The notes under the pieces were generated by a model, which was not told the DNA's origin, did no database searches, and saw only the letters and a list, made by a program, of their open reading frames with translations. A DNA stretch of 37,286 bases from Sulfurovum sp. (GTDB taxonomy: Bacteria > Campylobacterota > Campylobacteria > Campylobacterales > Sulfurovaceae), in contig JALSJI010000091.1 of assembly GCA_026989435.1 (NCBI GenBank), positions 1 through 37,286 on the forward strand, read 5' to 3'. Shown here in pieces: positions 15,703-22,430 of this stretch; positions within the stretch are counted from its first letter, which is position 1, and each line of letters begins with the position of its first letter. The position numbers were made by a program, and so were the translations under genes.

Positions 15703-17088
15703 ATGGATTTAAAACTTTATTTGAATTTGTATGCATTGTTGCAAAGAGATGTTTCAACAAAAGAGCAGCAAAGAGCTTTTGGGTTGGAGCATGCAGTACT
15801 TAAGCACAAACCAATAGCACAATTGGCAGCATGGGAAAAGAGGTATATAGATCTTCTTAAAAGACCCTTGTTAAGTGAGAGGGTGACCTCCTATCTGTAT
15901 ATTATGACATTTTTGTTGGGTACGCTCTCTTTTATACTTGGATTATTTTCCGGAATTGCTTTGCTTAGTTATAACGGGCATGAGCCTGTCAATGTAGTCT
16001 ATTTTATGGCTATGGTTATATTTTTCCCTTTGTTTACTATGCTTTTGGCACTTTTTGCGATGTTTAAGTCTAGGAGCAATAGCAATATTTTGATGCATCT
16101 GACACCGGCATATTGGATGGAGAAGATTGCAGCACGCTTTGCGCATAAAGAGGAGAGCTTTAAAAAGCATTTCAATATGGATCCGATTCTTGCAAAGTGG
16201 ATTGTCTTAAGACGTGCTCAGTGTATGGCACTTCTTTTTTCTGTGGGATTGCTTCTTGCCTTGTTGGGGACGGTTGTGACAAGAGATCTTGCTTTTGCAT
16301 GGAGCACAACGTTGAAGATTACTCCGGATGGCTTTTACGCTTTTCTTAATATGTTGGCATTTCCTTGGAGAGAGTTTATTCCATCGGCTATTCCCTCCCT
16401 TGAATTGATAGAGCATAGTCAATACTTTAGATTAGGTGAGAGACTCAGCAATGAGATGATAACCCATGTTGAACAATTAGGCGAGTGGTGGAAATTTTTA
16501 GCCATGGCAACACTTTTTTATGCGCTCTTTTTAAGAACAATACTCTACCTTATTGTCACTATAGGTTATAAGAGGGCACTTAAAAAATCGATATTTTCCT
16601 TAGAGGGAACGTCTTTGTTGTTAAATAATATGAATAAACCGTTTATAACGACCGGTGCCCTTGAAGGTGAGGGTGTTGTCTTTTCGGTATCCAAAGATGT
16701 CCAGATGCTGCGAGAGTTAGAGAGCGTATATGATTTTATACAAGGGTGGGCGCTTTCTAGCTCTTTTTTAGAGGTTTTAAATGAGGTGATGAAGGTGAAA
16801 GCACAACATCAAGTCGTAGAGGTAGGGGGAAGTAATACCTTGTCTCAAGATAGTGAAATCGCACGGAAAAGTTTCGGAAAGGTGTTACTTTATGTTAAAG
16901 CATGGGAACCGCCTACATTGGATATATTAGACTATATAGAGTTACTTCTTGAATACGCGGGTAGGGTAGTTATATATCCCGTAGGTACGGAGAATGAAGG
17001 GTATCAGGCAAAAGAAAAATATATTCAGATTTGGGTAGATAAGATCTCAATGATAGATACGTCAAAAATATGGATAAAAGTACCATGA
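15703..17088 (+). CDS. DUF2868 membrane protein
   Basis: A 461-residue inner-membrane protein that I assign to the DUF2868 family from its layout and partner gene. Hydrophobic segments are at about 63-92, 97-125, 172-200 and 265-290. They are separated by a long soluble stretch and followed by a 170-residue cytoplasmic C-terminal domain ending KISMIDTSKIWIKVP. A DUF2868 protein next to a DUF3482 GTPase is a recurrent gene pair in proteobacteria; its function is not established. The stop overlaps the start of the GTPase gene. An alternative label is simply a multi-pass protein of unknown function. Confidence 0.75.
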   Translation: MDLKLYLNLYALLQRDVSTKEQQRAFGLEHAVLKHKPIAQLAAWEKRYIDLLKRPLLSERVTSYLYIMTFLLGTLSFILGLFSGIALLSYNGHEPVNVVYFMAMVIFFPLFTMLLALFAMFKSRSNSNILMHLTPAYWMEKIAARFAHKEESFKKHFNMDPILAKWIVLRRAQCMALLFSVGLLLALLGTVVTRDLAFAWSTTLKITPDGFYAFLNMLAFPWREFIPSAIPSLELIEHSQYFRLGERLSNEMITHVEQLGEWWKFLAMATLFYALFLRTILYLIVTIGYKRALKKSIFSLEGTSLLLNNMNKPFITTGALEGEGVVFSVSKDVQMLRELESVYDFIQGWALSSSFLEVLNEVMKVKAQHQVVEVGGSNTLSQDSEIARKSFGKVLLYVKAWEPPTLDILDYIELLLEYAGRVVIYPVGTENEGYQAKEKYIQIWVDKISMIDTSKIWIKVP

Positions 17089-18497
17089 AAAAACACCCTA
17101 GATTTGCAGTCGTCGGACATCCTAATAAAGGGAAGAGTTCCATTGTGTCTGCTTTAGCCATGGATGACAGCGTGCAGATTTCAGATATGCCGGGAACAAC
17201 GCAAAAGCAGAGGTCTTTTCCGCTAAAAGTAGACGGGAAAGTACTCTATGAGCTTATCGATACACCGGGTTTTCAAAGACCAAGACAAGTACTTGAATGG
17301 TTGCAAAAAGAGAAGGTTTCAGCAGAAAAAAGAGAGGAAAGGATTCGACTTTTTATTAATAAATATGAAAATGATGAGCGTTTTAATGATGAAATTGAAC
17401 TGCTTAAACCTATTGTAGAAGGTGCAGGTATTATTTATATTGTGGATGCTTCTAAACCATACGGACAAGAGTATGAGACTGAGATGGAGATACTCCGTTA
17501 TACCGGACAGCCCTCTATGGCACTGATTAACCATATTGAAGAGGCAGACTATGCTTTAGAGTGGAAGAGGGTGCTTGGACAGTATTTTAAGATGGTACGC
17601 ACGTTTAATCCAATGAGTGTCAATTTGGAAAATCATATCTCTATACTTGAGAGCATGGCACAGCTAAAAGAGGAGTGGATTAGACCCGTAAAAGAAGCTA
17701 TCGAACTTTTTGAATCCTATCATAAACAGATGCTTGAGAAAAGCTGTGAAGTGATAAGTCATTTGATATACGATGCTTTAAGTTATAAAGAGAGACTCTC
17801 TTTAAAAAATGAAGAAGTGCAAGAGAGTGAAAAAGAGGAGATCGAGCAGAAATATCAAGCATCATTGAGGCAATTAGAGAGAAGAAGTCAAAAGAAGATA
17901 GAGGAAATATGGAACCACAAAAATTTAGAAAAAACACAGAATATACTCGCCTTTGAAGAGATAGATCTATTTTCCAAAGAGGCAGCATCCGTTTTTGGGT
18001 TAACGCGTCAGGAACTTGTGGTAACAGGTGCAACAAGTGCGGCTATTGCAGGAGCAGGTATAGATCTCTTGTTTATGGGGCATACTTTGTTGCTTGGTGG
18101 AGCGATTGGAGGGCTGGTTGGAGGAGTAGGAGCTTATTTTAGTTTTGACAAACTTTCTGAGATAAAACTCTTAGGGCAGAAGGTAGGAAAACATTATTTG
18201 CAAATGGGTCCTATGCAAAATAGAAATTTTCCTTATATTTTATTGGGACGTGCTTTATATCATCTCTTTATCATAATGCATCGTTCTCATGCATTAAGAA
18301 GTGCCGTAGAGTTAGATGAAGGCCAAGCCTTTAAAGTAGAGTGGCTGAATGATGCCTTAAAAAAAGATTTAGAGCGCTACCATCAGCTTTTTCGAAAAGA
18401 GATCGTTGTAGAGGGGGAAAAATTAACAGAGTATGCAAGAGTAGTACAAAGTGCAATAGGGAATATAGATAATAAAGTATTAAATATATTAAACTAG
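17085..18497 (+). CDS. GTPase with DUF3482 C-terminal region
   Basis: A 470-residue Era/YfjP-like GTPase. G1 is GHPNKGKSSI, G2 lies in SDMPGTTQKQ, G3 is DTPG and G4 appears as NHIEEAD in place of the usual NKxD, so nucleotide specificity may be relaxed. After the G domain come a Glu/Lys-rich coiled coil (about residues 235-290) and a glycine-rich hydrophobic segment, GATSAAIAGAGIDLLFMGHT onward (about 318-365), that could insert into membrane. The start is taken at 17085 for the ATGA overlap with the DUF2868 gene; an in-frame ATG at 17070 is the alternative, and neither has a strong ribosome site. It probably works with its membrane partner. Confidence 0.82.
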   Translation: MKKHPRFAVVGHPNKGKSSIVSALAMDDSVQISDMPGTTQKQRSFPLKVDGKVLYELIDTPGFQRPRQVLEWLQKEKVSAEKREERIRLFINKYENDERFNDEIELLKPIVEGAGIIYIVDASKPYGQEYETEMEILRYTGQPSMALINHIEEADYALEWKRVLGQYFKMVRTFNPMSVNLENHISILESMAQLKEEWIRPVKEAIELFESYHKQMLEKSCEVISHLIYDALSYKERLSLKNEEVQESEKEEIEQKYQASLRQLERRSQKKIEEIWNHKNLEKTQNILAFEEIDLFSKEAASVFGLTRQELVVTGATSAAIAGAGIDLLFMGHTLLLGGAIGGLVGGVGAYFSFDKLSEIKLLGQKVGKHYLQMGPMQNRNFPYILLGRALYHLFIIMHRSHALRSAVELDEGQAFKVEWLNDALKKDLERYHQLFRKEIVVEGEKLTEYARVVQSAIGNIDNKVLNILN

Positions 18498-18529: not shown

Positions 18530-19027
18530 TTAAATAAGCACTAATTTATTTGCTCCCATTAAAATAAGAGAAGCTAAAAGCCCCCCCGCAAATCCTGCTA
18601 ATACATCATCAAGCATCACACCCATACCTCCTTTGAGCTCTCTATCAATCCATCCTATGGTTGAGGGTTTCCAGATGTCAAAAAGACGAAATGTAGCGAA
18701 GCTTAATATAACGGCTAGTATTTCCGCATAAACATAAACCATAGCAGTAGCGGTGGAGTAGGCAATCATTAAACACAGCCACATGCCTACAGCCTCGTCA
18801 ATGACAATATGTTGTTGGTCATGCACGCCCGTCTCTTTTTCATATTTATTAATTTCAAATATGCCGATAACCGTGGTGGCAAGAGTAAGCATAAAGAGTG
18901 CTTCCATACCAAGGTAGTATAGCACGACCAACCCTACCGGAAGAGCGCAGAGTGTACCTATGGTACCCGGGGATTTAGGGCTTAATCCTGATCCAAAAAA
19001 GGTAAGAAAAAGTTTTTGAAGATTCAT
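18530..19027 (-). CDS. pgpA: Phosphatidylglycerophosphatase A
   Basis: A 165-residue inner-membrane phosphatase that removes the phosphate from phosphatidylglycerophosphate in phosphatidylglycerol synthesis. The sequence has the PgpA landmarks: FFGSGLSPKSPGTIGTL at the N-terminus, HIVIDEAVGMWL in the middle, FRLFDIWKPSTIGWIDREL and the GGMGVMLDDVLAG motif with its acidic pair. Three to four membrane helices are visible. It lies 18 bases after the restored end of the sat-like gene on the same strand and is probably cotranscribed with it; I recall the same order in Campylobacter jejuni. Confidence 0.93.
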   Translation of the reverse strand: MNLQKLFLTFFGSGLSPKSPGTIGTLCALPVGLVVLYYLGMEALFMLTLATTVIGIFEINKYEKETGVHDQQHIVIDEAVGMWLCLMIAYSTATAMVYVYAEILAVILSFATFRLFDIWKPSTIGWIDRELKGGMGVMLDDVLAGFAGGLLASLILMGANKLVLI

Positions 19028-19045: not shown

Positions 19046-20226
19046 TTATGTAAGCGAGGAGGTTTGATAAAGGCTAATTAGTTTCAGATAAAATTGCTCT
19101 TCATCGAGATTTTCGAGTAAGCCTGAATTTGGCATAAGAGAATCATGAATTTGTTGCAAGTATTCAAATCTTTCAGGAAATAGGGCAGCTAGAATGTTCG
19201 CAGAGACCTCTTTACGTACTAAGATGGGAGGCGGAACCAGTCCTGTTGAATAAGCTTCATGATAGATTCGGAATGATAGTGGATATGATGATGTTGTCCA
19301 TGTGGACAGTTGGCAGTGCTAACGAGTGTTTTACAGGTATTACAATAGACATATTCGTCTACTGTTTTTATATCGATATCGATATTTTTACAGTGATCAA
19401 AAACGGTAGAGAGTCTATTTTTATCATAAAACAGTCCTAGTCCTTGATGGTTTTTGCCAATAACAAGTTGATCGCAACCATAATTTTTTACCATATTTGC
19501 TTCTAGAATCAGTTCGTCTTGGCCTGTAAAGATATAGCTGTTCTCAAAAGGAATAATGAGTATTTTGTTTTTGGGGATATAGTGATTGATGAATGCATTG
19601 AGGGCATTGTAGCGAATTTCATATTTTAAAATATCAATAGAGTATGGTTTTTTTAAAAATATAACAAGTAAATCGGAATCGGAAATAGCCTGCCTTATCA
19701 TTCGTTCATGTGCACGGTTGAGAGGGTTTGCAGTTAGCATCATGGAGGAGACAAATTTGGCACCTGTCATTTTAATCATCTCTTTGATGCGACGTTTATT
19801 GTCCTCTATGATAGGGTAATTTACATGATACTCCCCACATACGGCAAGGTTTCCTAGTCTAGAAAGGATTTTTTTTACACCCGGATGGGATGGGTCCGAT
19901 GTACCGTAGATATTGGAGAGACGTTTTTCAAAATTGATTGAAAAGGTTTCATCTACAATCATTTCACCCACTTTGCTGTTTTCACAAAAGAGATCAACTT
20001 TTTCTCCTTTTTTAAGTGTTTTGAGTACGGTATCATTTCTTCTCCCGTTGGGTGCTAGGACAAATGCAAAGGGAAAAGGCACCCCTTTGTAGATTTTTTT
20101 CTCATTGACTTCTTTGGCTTCCATGCTGTTCATGAGTTTATCAACCGGAGTCATGAGTCCTGCTTGTACAAGTGCCAAGGTAGAAAGGGCTTCTGTATCA
20201 ATATAGAGTGATTTTCTGGTTGGCAT
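19046..20226 (-). pseudogene. sat: Sulfate adenylyltransferase-like gene with a one-base frameshift near the 3' end
   Basis: The intact frame from 20226 gives 335 residues of an ATP-sulfurylase-like protein ending at 19219. Family marks are SDPSHPGVKK, VKNYGCDQLVIGKNHQGLG and a zinc knuckle Cys295-x2-Cys298-x8-Cys307-x-His309. Past about 19250 the typical C-terminus continues in the -1 frame as GLVPPPILVRKEVSANIL and stays open to a TAA at 19046-19048. Adding one base near the ATTCAACAGG stretch restores 393 residues, the normal length. The HxxH region reads LTANPLNRAHE instead of QTRNPxHRAHE, so Gln, Arg and the first His are lost at positions 164, 166 and 170. Either a decayed or repurposed paralogue, with the frameshift real or a sequencing error. 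Confidence 0.8.
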
Positions 20227-20253: not shown

Positions 20254-21135
20254 TTATTTCTTTTTAAAGAGATCAAATTTTCTTCTTTTTTCCCAAAGAC
20301 TCTTTCTTGAAATACCCAATTTCTTAGAGAGTTCCGTATCTGGAAATTTGTATTGAAATGCTTTGACGATATATTTGACATAATCATCGATAGTTAGGAT
20401 CTCATTTTGATCATAGAGCTTAGAGTCCGTGTTCAGCGAGATAGTTGTAAATTCACATTCAAGTTCGCAGGTAGTACAGATAATGAATTCATATTGTTTA
20501 ATATTACTAAACAGGTACTCTCTGTCTGTTTTTTTGAGTGACTCTATTTCAGTGAGATAGAGTAGAGAGTTACGATAACTTTTTGCTATTTTCTCTTTCC
20601 AGTTGTTTTGGCTCAGTGGGATAAAAGTAAGAAGTTTATTTTTTGTTTTTGCATACTCAAAAACTACTTTGTCAATAAGTCTTTGGTAGTTTGTTTCTAT
20701 CACCAACGGTGTACTGATACTATCCATGGAGATATCCAGTGTTATCTCTTTAAGCAGGTTGTCAATATATGTTTGATAGCACTCTGTTTTCTTTTTGAGT
20801 TTTTGAAATTCTTGATAGTGGGCTATTTTTCGAATAAGTTCTTCAATCATAAAGGGTTTGACAATGTAGTCTTTAGCGCCAAGTTTTAAAGGTATGCTTA
20901 CTGTATCATTGTTGATATAATTGACCATAAGTATGATAATTTTATCTTTATATTTTTTGATAAGCTGGTCGCTGTTTTGACCCGGCATATTGGTAGAGAG
21001 GAGATAGATATCACCGTTAGCTTGCATCGCTTCTTTGGTCGAGCTATATATTTCTGTCTCAAAGTTTTGTTCATTGAGTTTTGAGGCAATACTTTGCGCT
21101 AGATGGAGTTCGTTTTCTACAATAATTATTTTCAT
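20254..21135 (-). CDS. Atypical response regulator with degenerate receiver and Fis-type HTH
   Basis: A 293-residue protein. The N-terminal 115 residues are a receiver fold: KIIIVENELHLAQSI (acidic pocket reduced to Glu-Asn-Glu) and the conserved Lys in KDYIVKPFM. At the phospho-acceptor position YLLSTNMPG has Ser where Asp is expected. The C-terminus is a Fis-like helix-turn-helix, ELSKKLGISRKSLWEKRRKF. The centre (about 165-245) looks like a shrunken NtrC-type ATPase: LLYLTEIESLKKTDREYLF resembles the Walker B/switch region, but no Walker A or GAFTGA is visible. So it is probably not phospho-controlled and not a sigma-54 activator. It overlaps ispDF by four bases and precedes the sat-like gene by 27. 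Confidence 0.8.
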   Translation of the reverse strand: MKIIIVENELHLAQSIASKLNEQNFETEIYSSTKEAMQANGDIYLLSTNMPGQNSDQLIKKYKDKIIILMVNYINNDTVSIPLKLGAKDYIVKPFMIEELIRKIAHYQEFQKLKKKTECYQTYIDNLLKEITLDISMDSISTPLVIETNYQRLIDKVVFEYAKTKNKLLTFIPLSQNNWKEKIAKSYRNSLLYLTEIESLKKTDREYLFSNIKQYEFIICTTCELECEFTTISLNTDSKLYDQNEILTIDDYVKYIVKAFQYKFPDTELSKKLGISRKSLWEKRRKFDLFKKK

Positions 21136-22253
21136 AATGTTTTCCAGTTAATATAGGTTAAATTTGCTACTGCATGAACAGTGATCCCCTCTTTACGTCC
21201 AATGAAACCTAGTTTTTCGGATGTGGTTGCTTTGATATTTACAAAGTTTTTTCGAATACCTAGTATATTGGCAAGCGTCTGTCTCATCTGCTCTTTATAG
21301 GGTAAAAGTTTTGGTACTTCAGCGATGATGGTCATGTCTATATTGCCTACCTCCAAGCCAAAAGCGTTGATACGCTTGAGTGTATCGCGTAAAAGTATTT
21401 TTGAATCGGCTTTTGCATATTGCTCTTCCGTATCCGGATAGAACTCACCGATATCACCCATACCAGCAGCACCTAAAAGAGCATCGATTAAAGCATGTAT
21501 GGCAACGTCTCCGTCACTGTGCGCTTTTAATCCATAGGGAACATCTATCGATACGCCACAAAGAAACATCTGTTTTCCCTTTTGAAAAGGGTGTATATCG
21601 ATACCAAAGCCTGTAAGTGTTTTGCTACCGGGTGCTTGTAAGCACGTTATTTTTTGAAAGTCTTCTAGGGTGGTGAGTTTATGTGCTTGAGTAGACCCCT
21701 CCACAAAGTGTATTTTCTCACCCAATGAGGCGACGGCAGAGGAGTCATCTGTAAAGAGTGTATCTGTCTGTAAGGCTTTTTTTAGTATAGATGTACATGA
21801 GAGCTGAGGTGTCTGTATGATTTGGACTTTTTTTCTATCTATAGGGGCATTATTAAAGTAGAGTGTATCGGTTACGGGAAGTGCGGGCACAATACAAGAG
21901 GCCTTCTTTTTTGCAGATAGTATACGTTTTATCATATCCTCAGGTACACAGCATCGTGCGATATCAGAGACAAGTACATATTTTGATGTGACATGCTCCA
22001 GTGCCTTGCTAAGAGAGCCTTGCCTGCTGTTATCGCCTTGTATATAGGTATAGTCTGCAAATGTTTTCATTAGTGTTATCTCCTCAGAGGAGGAGACGAC
22101 GATAATGTCACAAAAGGTAGCAGTTTTTTCAAAGTGTTGTGCTACATATAGCCATAGAGGAGAGTCTTGTGTATAGATCCACTGTTTCTTGACAGAAGCT
22201 TTAAAACGTGATGAGTTTCCTGCACCTAAAAGAATTAAAGTTGTGTCTGACAC
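21132..22253 (-). CDS. ispDF: Bifunctional IspD/IspF isoprenoid enzyme
   Basis: A fused enzyme of the methylerythritol phosphate pathway. The N-terminal half is IspD cytidylyltransferase (LILLGAGNSSRF with the CTP-binding glycine/arginine loop; VSDIARCC). The C-terminal half is IspF 2-C-methyl-D-erythritol 2,4-cyclodiphosphate synthase (GFGIDIHPF, GLKAHSDGDVAIHALIDALLG, MGDIGEFYPD). The fusion is typical of Campylobacterota and alphaproteobacteria. I choose the GTG at 22253 (MSDTTLILLGAG, 373 residues) because AGGGG lies five bases upstream; the ATG at 22280 would add nine residues and has no ribosome site. The stop overlaps the response regulator start. Confidence 0.93.
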   Translation of the reverse strand: MSDTTLILLGAGNSSRFKASVKKQWIYTQDSPLWLYVAQHFEKTATFCDIIVVSSSEEITLMKTFADYTYIQGDNSRQGSLSKALEHVTSKYVLVSDIARCCVPEDMIKRILSAKKKASCIVPALPVTDTLYFNNAPIDRKKVQIIQTPQLSCTSILKKALQTDTLFTDDSSAVASLGEKIHFVEGSTQAHKLTTLEDFQKITCLQAPGSKTLTGFGIDIHPFQKGKQMFLCGVSIDVPYGLKAHSDGDVAIHALIDALLGAAGMGDIGEFYPDTEEQYAKADSKILLRDTLKRINAFGLEVGNIDMTIIAEVPKLLPYKEQMRQTLANILGIRKNFVNIKATTSEKLGFIGRKEGITVHAVANLTYINWKTL

Positions 22254-22430
22254 CTTAGCCCCTATGGTAATTTGTAGCATTTAGTAACGGAATTATACAT
22301 AAAAAAGCTTTATTCCTGCTTTGTAGGGTTGGTTTGTAGGAATGTGTTTATGACAGGTTTGTTAAAATTTAATCCTTATTTAAGATTGTACTGGTATAAC
22401 TCATTATATTTTAAAAAGTGAAGGATATTC

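Follow-up and report, generated by a model that had tools for sequence, protein, structure and literature searches.

In ATP sulfurylase (sulfate adenylyltransferase, Sat), residues Q199 and R201 serve sulfate and R365 serves pyrophosphate (PPi), a numbering and set of roles taken from extracts of PMC3779200. In Campylobacterota, the gene described here is currently taken as evidence for sulfate activation: an extract of PMC4674564 presents sat as conspicuous in a Campylobacterales genome with possibly no other gene of assimilatory sulfate reduction, and an extract of PMC10092268 counts a Nautilia protein as a dissimilatory sulfate adenylyltransferase among the enzymes of sulfur respiration. 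We analyzed a 37,286-nucleotide stretch of Sulfurovum sp. DNA (contig JALSJI010000091.1; the window), on whose minus strand a Sat-like open reading frame (ORF) with PUA_2 and ATP-sulfurylase domains spans 19219..20226, giving 335 amino acids as read, with a frameshift near its end. The protein belongs to a Campylobacterota family with Cj1609 as its Campylobacter jejuni ortholog; this family is related to Sat, has both lost and gained residues, lies in a recurring gene order and is under purifying selection. Judged by its sequences, the family very probably makes no adenosine 5′-phosphosulfate (APS) and has lost Sat activity, as an earlier note on this DNA had suggested. The full reading that we favor, with roughly even confidence, is that of a repurposed family: it would bind nucleotides as a scaffold or regulator and contact a partner through its zinc- and tail-bearing half, this role being the least certain part of the reading.

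The window protein has the Sat fold, matching both PUA_2 (57 bits) and the ATP-sulfurylase domain PF01747 (154 bits, cut-off 24.3), and falls below the cut-offs of two curated NCBIfam Sat models (153 bits for a cut-off of 387, and 109 for 323). On the first of these models, the scores are 127–197 for four relatives and 422 and 426 for two true Sats, of which one falls slightly short of the second model's cut-off. In the window protein, QxRN reads LTAN, HxxH reads NRAH and GRDHAG reads GKNHQG. Alignment to solved Sats places LTANPLNRAHE, in place of QTRNPxHxxHE, at residues 164–174 (19705..19737, minus strand), and GKNHQG at residues 257–262 (19441..19458, minus strand). The replacement of Gln, Arg and the first His at positions 164, 166 and 170, and the altered second loop, are as the earlier note described them; its motif does lie in the ORF, with the coordinates corrected from 19690–19735, and no intact version is present elsewhere in the protein. 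The zinc knuckle covers residues 295–314 (19285..19344, minus strand) and carries the family's CPHGxHHH signature. In the window's genome (87% complete), this ORF is the only PF01747 match, so that no second, canonical sat was found; there was no match to APS reductase or APS kinase, AprA matched below threshold only, and CysD was not sought there.

A homolog is present in 306 of 397 Campylobacterota genomes. Six of the 306 have two matches, the second gene being a true Sat in five and the sixth case a split gene, and in genome G122 the sole match is a true Sat that matches the one in Arcobacter nitrofigilis exactly; the Sat-like protein is thus found in 305 of the 397. Among the matches listed by score, true Sats separate in six genomes (above 248 bits, the next score being 209), all with both QxRN and GRDHAG. 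Their genes (L182–L187) encode all catalytic residues and lie away from the ispDF cluster described below, and five of the six genomes also carry the Sat-like gene. Members from public sources include C. jejuni, C. coli, C. lari, Sulfurovum sp. NBC37-1 and Nitratiruptor sp. SB155-2.

A contig scan with a single protein as query confirmed no relative, and an alignment query gave the best 80 of 516 loci; the 80 named loci are nearly all Sulfurovaceae-type records. Before counting, L001 and L002 (the window itself) and L045, L057, L059, L061, L194 and L195 (partial, extended or short) were left out, and L182–L187 were transferred to the true-Sat set. One Sat-like protein (L061, 727-2259; L195) has 511 amino acids, with about 110 or more extra residues ahead of the ATP-sulfurylase domain and no PUA_2 match. 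Of 423 rows, 419 have 370–420 amino acids, and clustering at 85% yielded 193 representatives (100 from loci and 93 from protein searches), a set weighted to Sulfurovaceae and Campylobacter.

The sulfate residues Q199 and R201 are each found in 0 of the 193 representatives, which takes their replacement beyond chance. H205, the first His of HxxH, is H in 126, N in 66 and T in one; the loss, whose sharing the earlier note had raised as a point to check, is common to the family for Gln and Arg and not for this His, and the exact window combination L/A/N occurs in 56 of 193. Position 365 is Arg in only 10 members, and in the surrounding SGTxxR region S360 is found in two and T362 is outside the commonest states. 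The Asp of the GxxKxxD loop is found in none, its position being a gap in 192; with this Asp and the pyrophosphate Arg, the loss extends beyond what the earlier note described. N202 is retained in 83. H208, the second His of HxxH, persists in 191 and E209 in all 193, together with G295 (185), H298 (182) and G300 (181); within the GRDHAG loop, R is found in 11 and D297 is replaced by N in 173, D being outside the five commonest states. In the true Sats, Q199, R201, N202, H205, H208, E209, G295, D297, H298, G300, R365 and the GxxKxxD Asp are each conserved in no fewer than 124 of 126 sequences. More broadly, 84 columns are at least 98% fixed in true Sats, of which the family keeps 17 in at least 90%, and 40 in at most 10%, of its members.

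Among the gains, CPHG.H is present in 190 of 193 family members, CPHG.HHH in 173 and a YQ-like C-terminal ending in 171 (SLT in 123, YMV in 29), compared with 0 of 126 true Sats in each case. The zinc pattern common to both groups is found in 193 of 193 and 125 of 126, respectively. Mean conservation is 0.685 in the zinc segment, 0.668 in the HxxH loop, 0.561 in the tail and 0.441 in the N-terminal domain. G..H is intact in 177 members and broken in 16, all of which retain the zinc signature and the tail FY. On a quick tree of 47 of the 193 family rows and 11 of the 126 Sat rows, the family falls on one side of a branch (Shimodaira–Hasegawa-like approximate likelihood ratio test, SH-aLRT, 100), with a minimum of four changes in the first-His state and six in the G..H state.

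The ratio of nonsynonymous to synonymous substitution rates (dN/dS) has a median of 0.049 and a maximum of 0.095 over 54 of 153 pairs among 18 genes that we chose from the 80 named loci, the other 99 pairs being saturated and excluded. A decaying relic without function might account for the frameshift in the window copy and for the 91 genomes without a match, of which 71 are unlisted and 20 listed (family code f2 accounts for 16, among them 13 in genus g21; f6 for two; f5 for one; and the window's own genus for one). This explanation is hardly credible in view of the low dN/dS and the newly fixed residues. Moreover, extracts of PMC10077673 report Cj1609 as core to four species and essential only in C. 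jejuni and C. coli (six and four strains, respectively), and as non-essential in C. lari 35221 and C. hyointestinalis 35217; polarity on pgpA may contribute to this essentiality. Conserved sequence also flanks the frameshift on both sides: down to 19246, frame −3 aligns with relative L003 at 75% and with Sulfurovum sp. NBC37-1 (P0061) at 72% identity, and from 19246 to 19049, frame −2 aligns at 76% and 79%, respectively. As both tested relatives switch frame at 19246, the last residues of the 335-residue reading are not the family C terminus; the final 66 residues lie in a different frame at 19049..19246 (minus strand) and terminate in LYQTSSLT. The intact gene in relatives commonly encodes 385–399 amino acids, and the frameshift may be a recent change or an assembly error. 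That the protein is retained for something, as the earlier note held, is borne out by its presence in 305 genomes, by the median dN/dS of about 0.05 and by the reported essentiality of Cj1609.

Since the sulfate-binding residues are lost, another job is very probable, and mere decay would not fix new residues at a dN/dS near 0.05, which leads us to repurposing. The protein retains the fold and zinc site of Sat, together with the pocket side which there faces the ribose or nucleoside and the α-phosphate (HE of HxxHE, and G..H.G), and has discarded the sides that face sulfate and PPi (the sulfate ligands, the PPi arginine and the GxxKxxD loop). New histidines have become fixed in the segment that links the adenine and PPi regions in Sat, and a C-terminal tail has been gained. 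The product may then act as a nucleotide-binding scaffold or regulator, its zinc and tail half touching a partner.

Several points weigh against this proposal. Few parts of the protein are as conserved as the HxxH loop, as expected if chemistry continues, and G..H is retained in 177 of 193 members; the nucleotide binding of the scaffold and its partner are themselves predictions. The 126 comparison Sats, moreover, are relatives of one Arcobacter Sat and form an unbalanced sample. The 'different nucleotidyl transfer' of the earlier note has perhaps one chance in a few: the protein may be a working nucleotidyltransferase with another acceptor, its pocket having moved away from Sat and come to resemble HxGH nucleotidyltransferases in general. 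A bolder version, which we consider unlikely, is that of a phylum-wide Sat-fold enzyme on which some species depend for viability; it would pass a nucleotidyl group to a so far undescribed acceptor other than sulfate, in an unmapped step of Campylobacterota metabolism. Against a transferase stand the rarity of the pyrophosphate-side Arg (10 of 193) with the SGTxxR motif gone, the N at H205 in 66 members and the loss of G..H in 16; fold likeness, in turn, proves no function. We place the scaffold ahead of a new transferase as a matter of judgement, because the arginine is lost, H and N exchange, and the 16 members with broken G..H keep the zinc and tail half.

Persisting ATP-sulfurylase activity, weak or carried by substitute residues, would agree with the protein's fold and its Pfam match far above cut-off, and with the annotation of most named records as sulfate adenylyltransferase. 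It is nonetheless very improbable, as the direct sulfate ligands are absent throughout the family, PMC9855970 reports for C. jejuni that several enzymes of sulfate assimilation are missing and that sulfate does not support growth, and CysD exceeds its cut-off in all six sulfate-activation loci scanned. These six loci, each with APS reductase or APS kinase, come from five genomes, and CysN exceeded its cut-off in both of the two scanned for it. In a set of 53 genomes, of which 50 carry the Sat-like gene, APS reductase reaches at least 200 bits in 13 (11 of the 50; nine of the 53 over the curated cut-off) and APS kinase at least 80 bits in 17 (16 of the 50), both lines being our own; 26 of the 50 have neither. 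AprA exceeded its cut-off in 0 of 53, in a search without a positive control. N-glycosylation was considered as a candidate link, since PglB (PF02516) is present in 37 of 47 genomes that carry the Sat-like gene and in three of 13 that do not; it was dropped, the association being weak in view of ten exceptions and shared ancestry.

The database name 'ATP sulfurylase' very probably states the wrong job for this protein in most of the Campylobacterota genomes examined. A family unable to bind sulfate would explain the case in PMC4674564, if its sat belongs here, and sulfate-metabolism reconstructions such as those of PMC4674564 and PMC10092268 would be corrected if their proteins are members. 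The C. jejuni ortholog is reported essential in an organism for which growth on sulfate is reported to be absent. A search of titles and abstracts found no work on an inactive or repurposed Sat in Campylobacterota, which does not exclude its existence; the name Cj1609 occurs in two papers, a word search in the available text of PMC11334517 found no mention of Cj1609, and the main texts of two C. jejuni transposon sequencing papers (PMC5557513 and PMC5430854) gave no match to the words sought.

In the window, the Sat-like gene lies between a response-regulator-type protein gene upstream (20254..21135; HP1021/CemR type by gene order and size), itself preceded by ispDF (21132..22280), and pgpA downstream (18530..19027), all on the minus strand. 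Among the 80 named loci, the regulator is a neighbor in 80, ispDF in 75 and pgpA in 76, and contig ends may account for the gaps. In 50 sampled genome loci (L142–L181 and L188–L197), the order ispDF, regulator, Sat-like gene is found in 45, with pgpA too in 42 of these. The adjacency underlies the proposal that the Sat-like protein is a dedicated partner of the regulator, a role that the earlier note had raised and that now appears improbable. Of 22 genomes that lack the Sat-like protein, 19 have a regulator homolog at E 1e-45 or better, taken as strong; the Sat-like gene is located elsewhere in four sampled loci, and a common operon may reflect history only. Adjacency is nonetheless very common, so that some link may exist. 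In those four loci (L156–L159, whose family code is also that of A. nitrofigilis), neither ispDF nor the regulator nor pgpA was found beside the gene, and L160, close to a contig end, has a different gene order. The relocated gene adjoins a small ORF, lipoprotein-like by eye, and QueH in the Pfam-scanned loci; the small ORF that follows it in L156, L158 and L159 had no Pfam match where scanned. The true sat loci L182–L187 have none of the three as neighbors. On the other side of pgpA in the window lie overlapping genes for a DUF2868 protein and a DUF3482 GTPase (15703-18497, plus strand), and 39 of the 80 named loci have the GTPase gene next to the cluster.

Among known systems, the CysDN sulfate adenylyltransferase resembles the family in the nominal reaction of its annotation only; it comprises other protein families (CysD and CysN models) and was found with APS reductase or APS kinase in the six scanned loci. 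At the loop that defines the HxGH nucleotidyltransferases (CoaD, NMNAT and the citrate lyase ligase CitC), the window protein reads NRAH, and the first position is H in 126, N in 66 and T in one of the 193 members; CoaD has T there. The family differs from these enzymes in its PUA-like domain, zinc site and tail, and it is without the phosphate-side SGTxxR-type motif, for which an arginine from elsewhere could substitute. The C. jejuni protein P0125, identified as Cj1609 by name, family and gene order rather than by locus tag, is a member by sequence, and the order Cj1607 ispDF, Cj1608, Cj1609 given in published extracts agrees with this; epinephrine up-regulates Cj1608 and Cj1609, downstream of Cj1607 ispDF, according to an extract of PMC4435418. 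P0125 differs from the window protein in keeping the first His (SSFDPLHRAHE) and in ending its tail with YMV. Compared with Sat itself (Thermus thermophilus 1V47 and Allochromatium vinosum 4DNX), the family is without the sulfate ligands, the PPi arginine and the GxxKxxD loop, and has CPHGxH and the C-terminal tail in addition.
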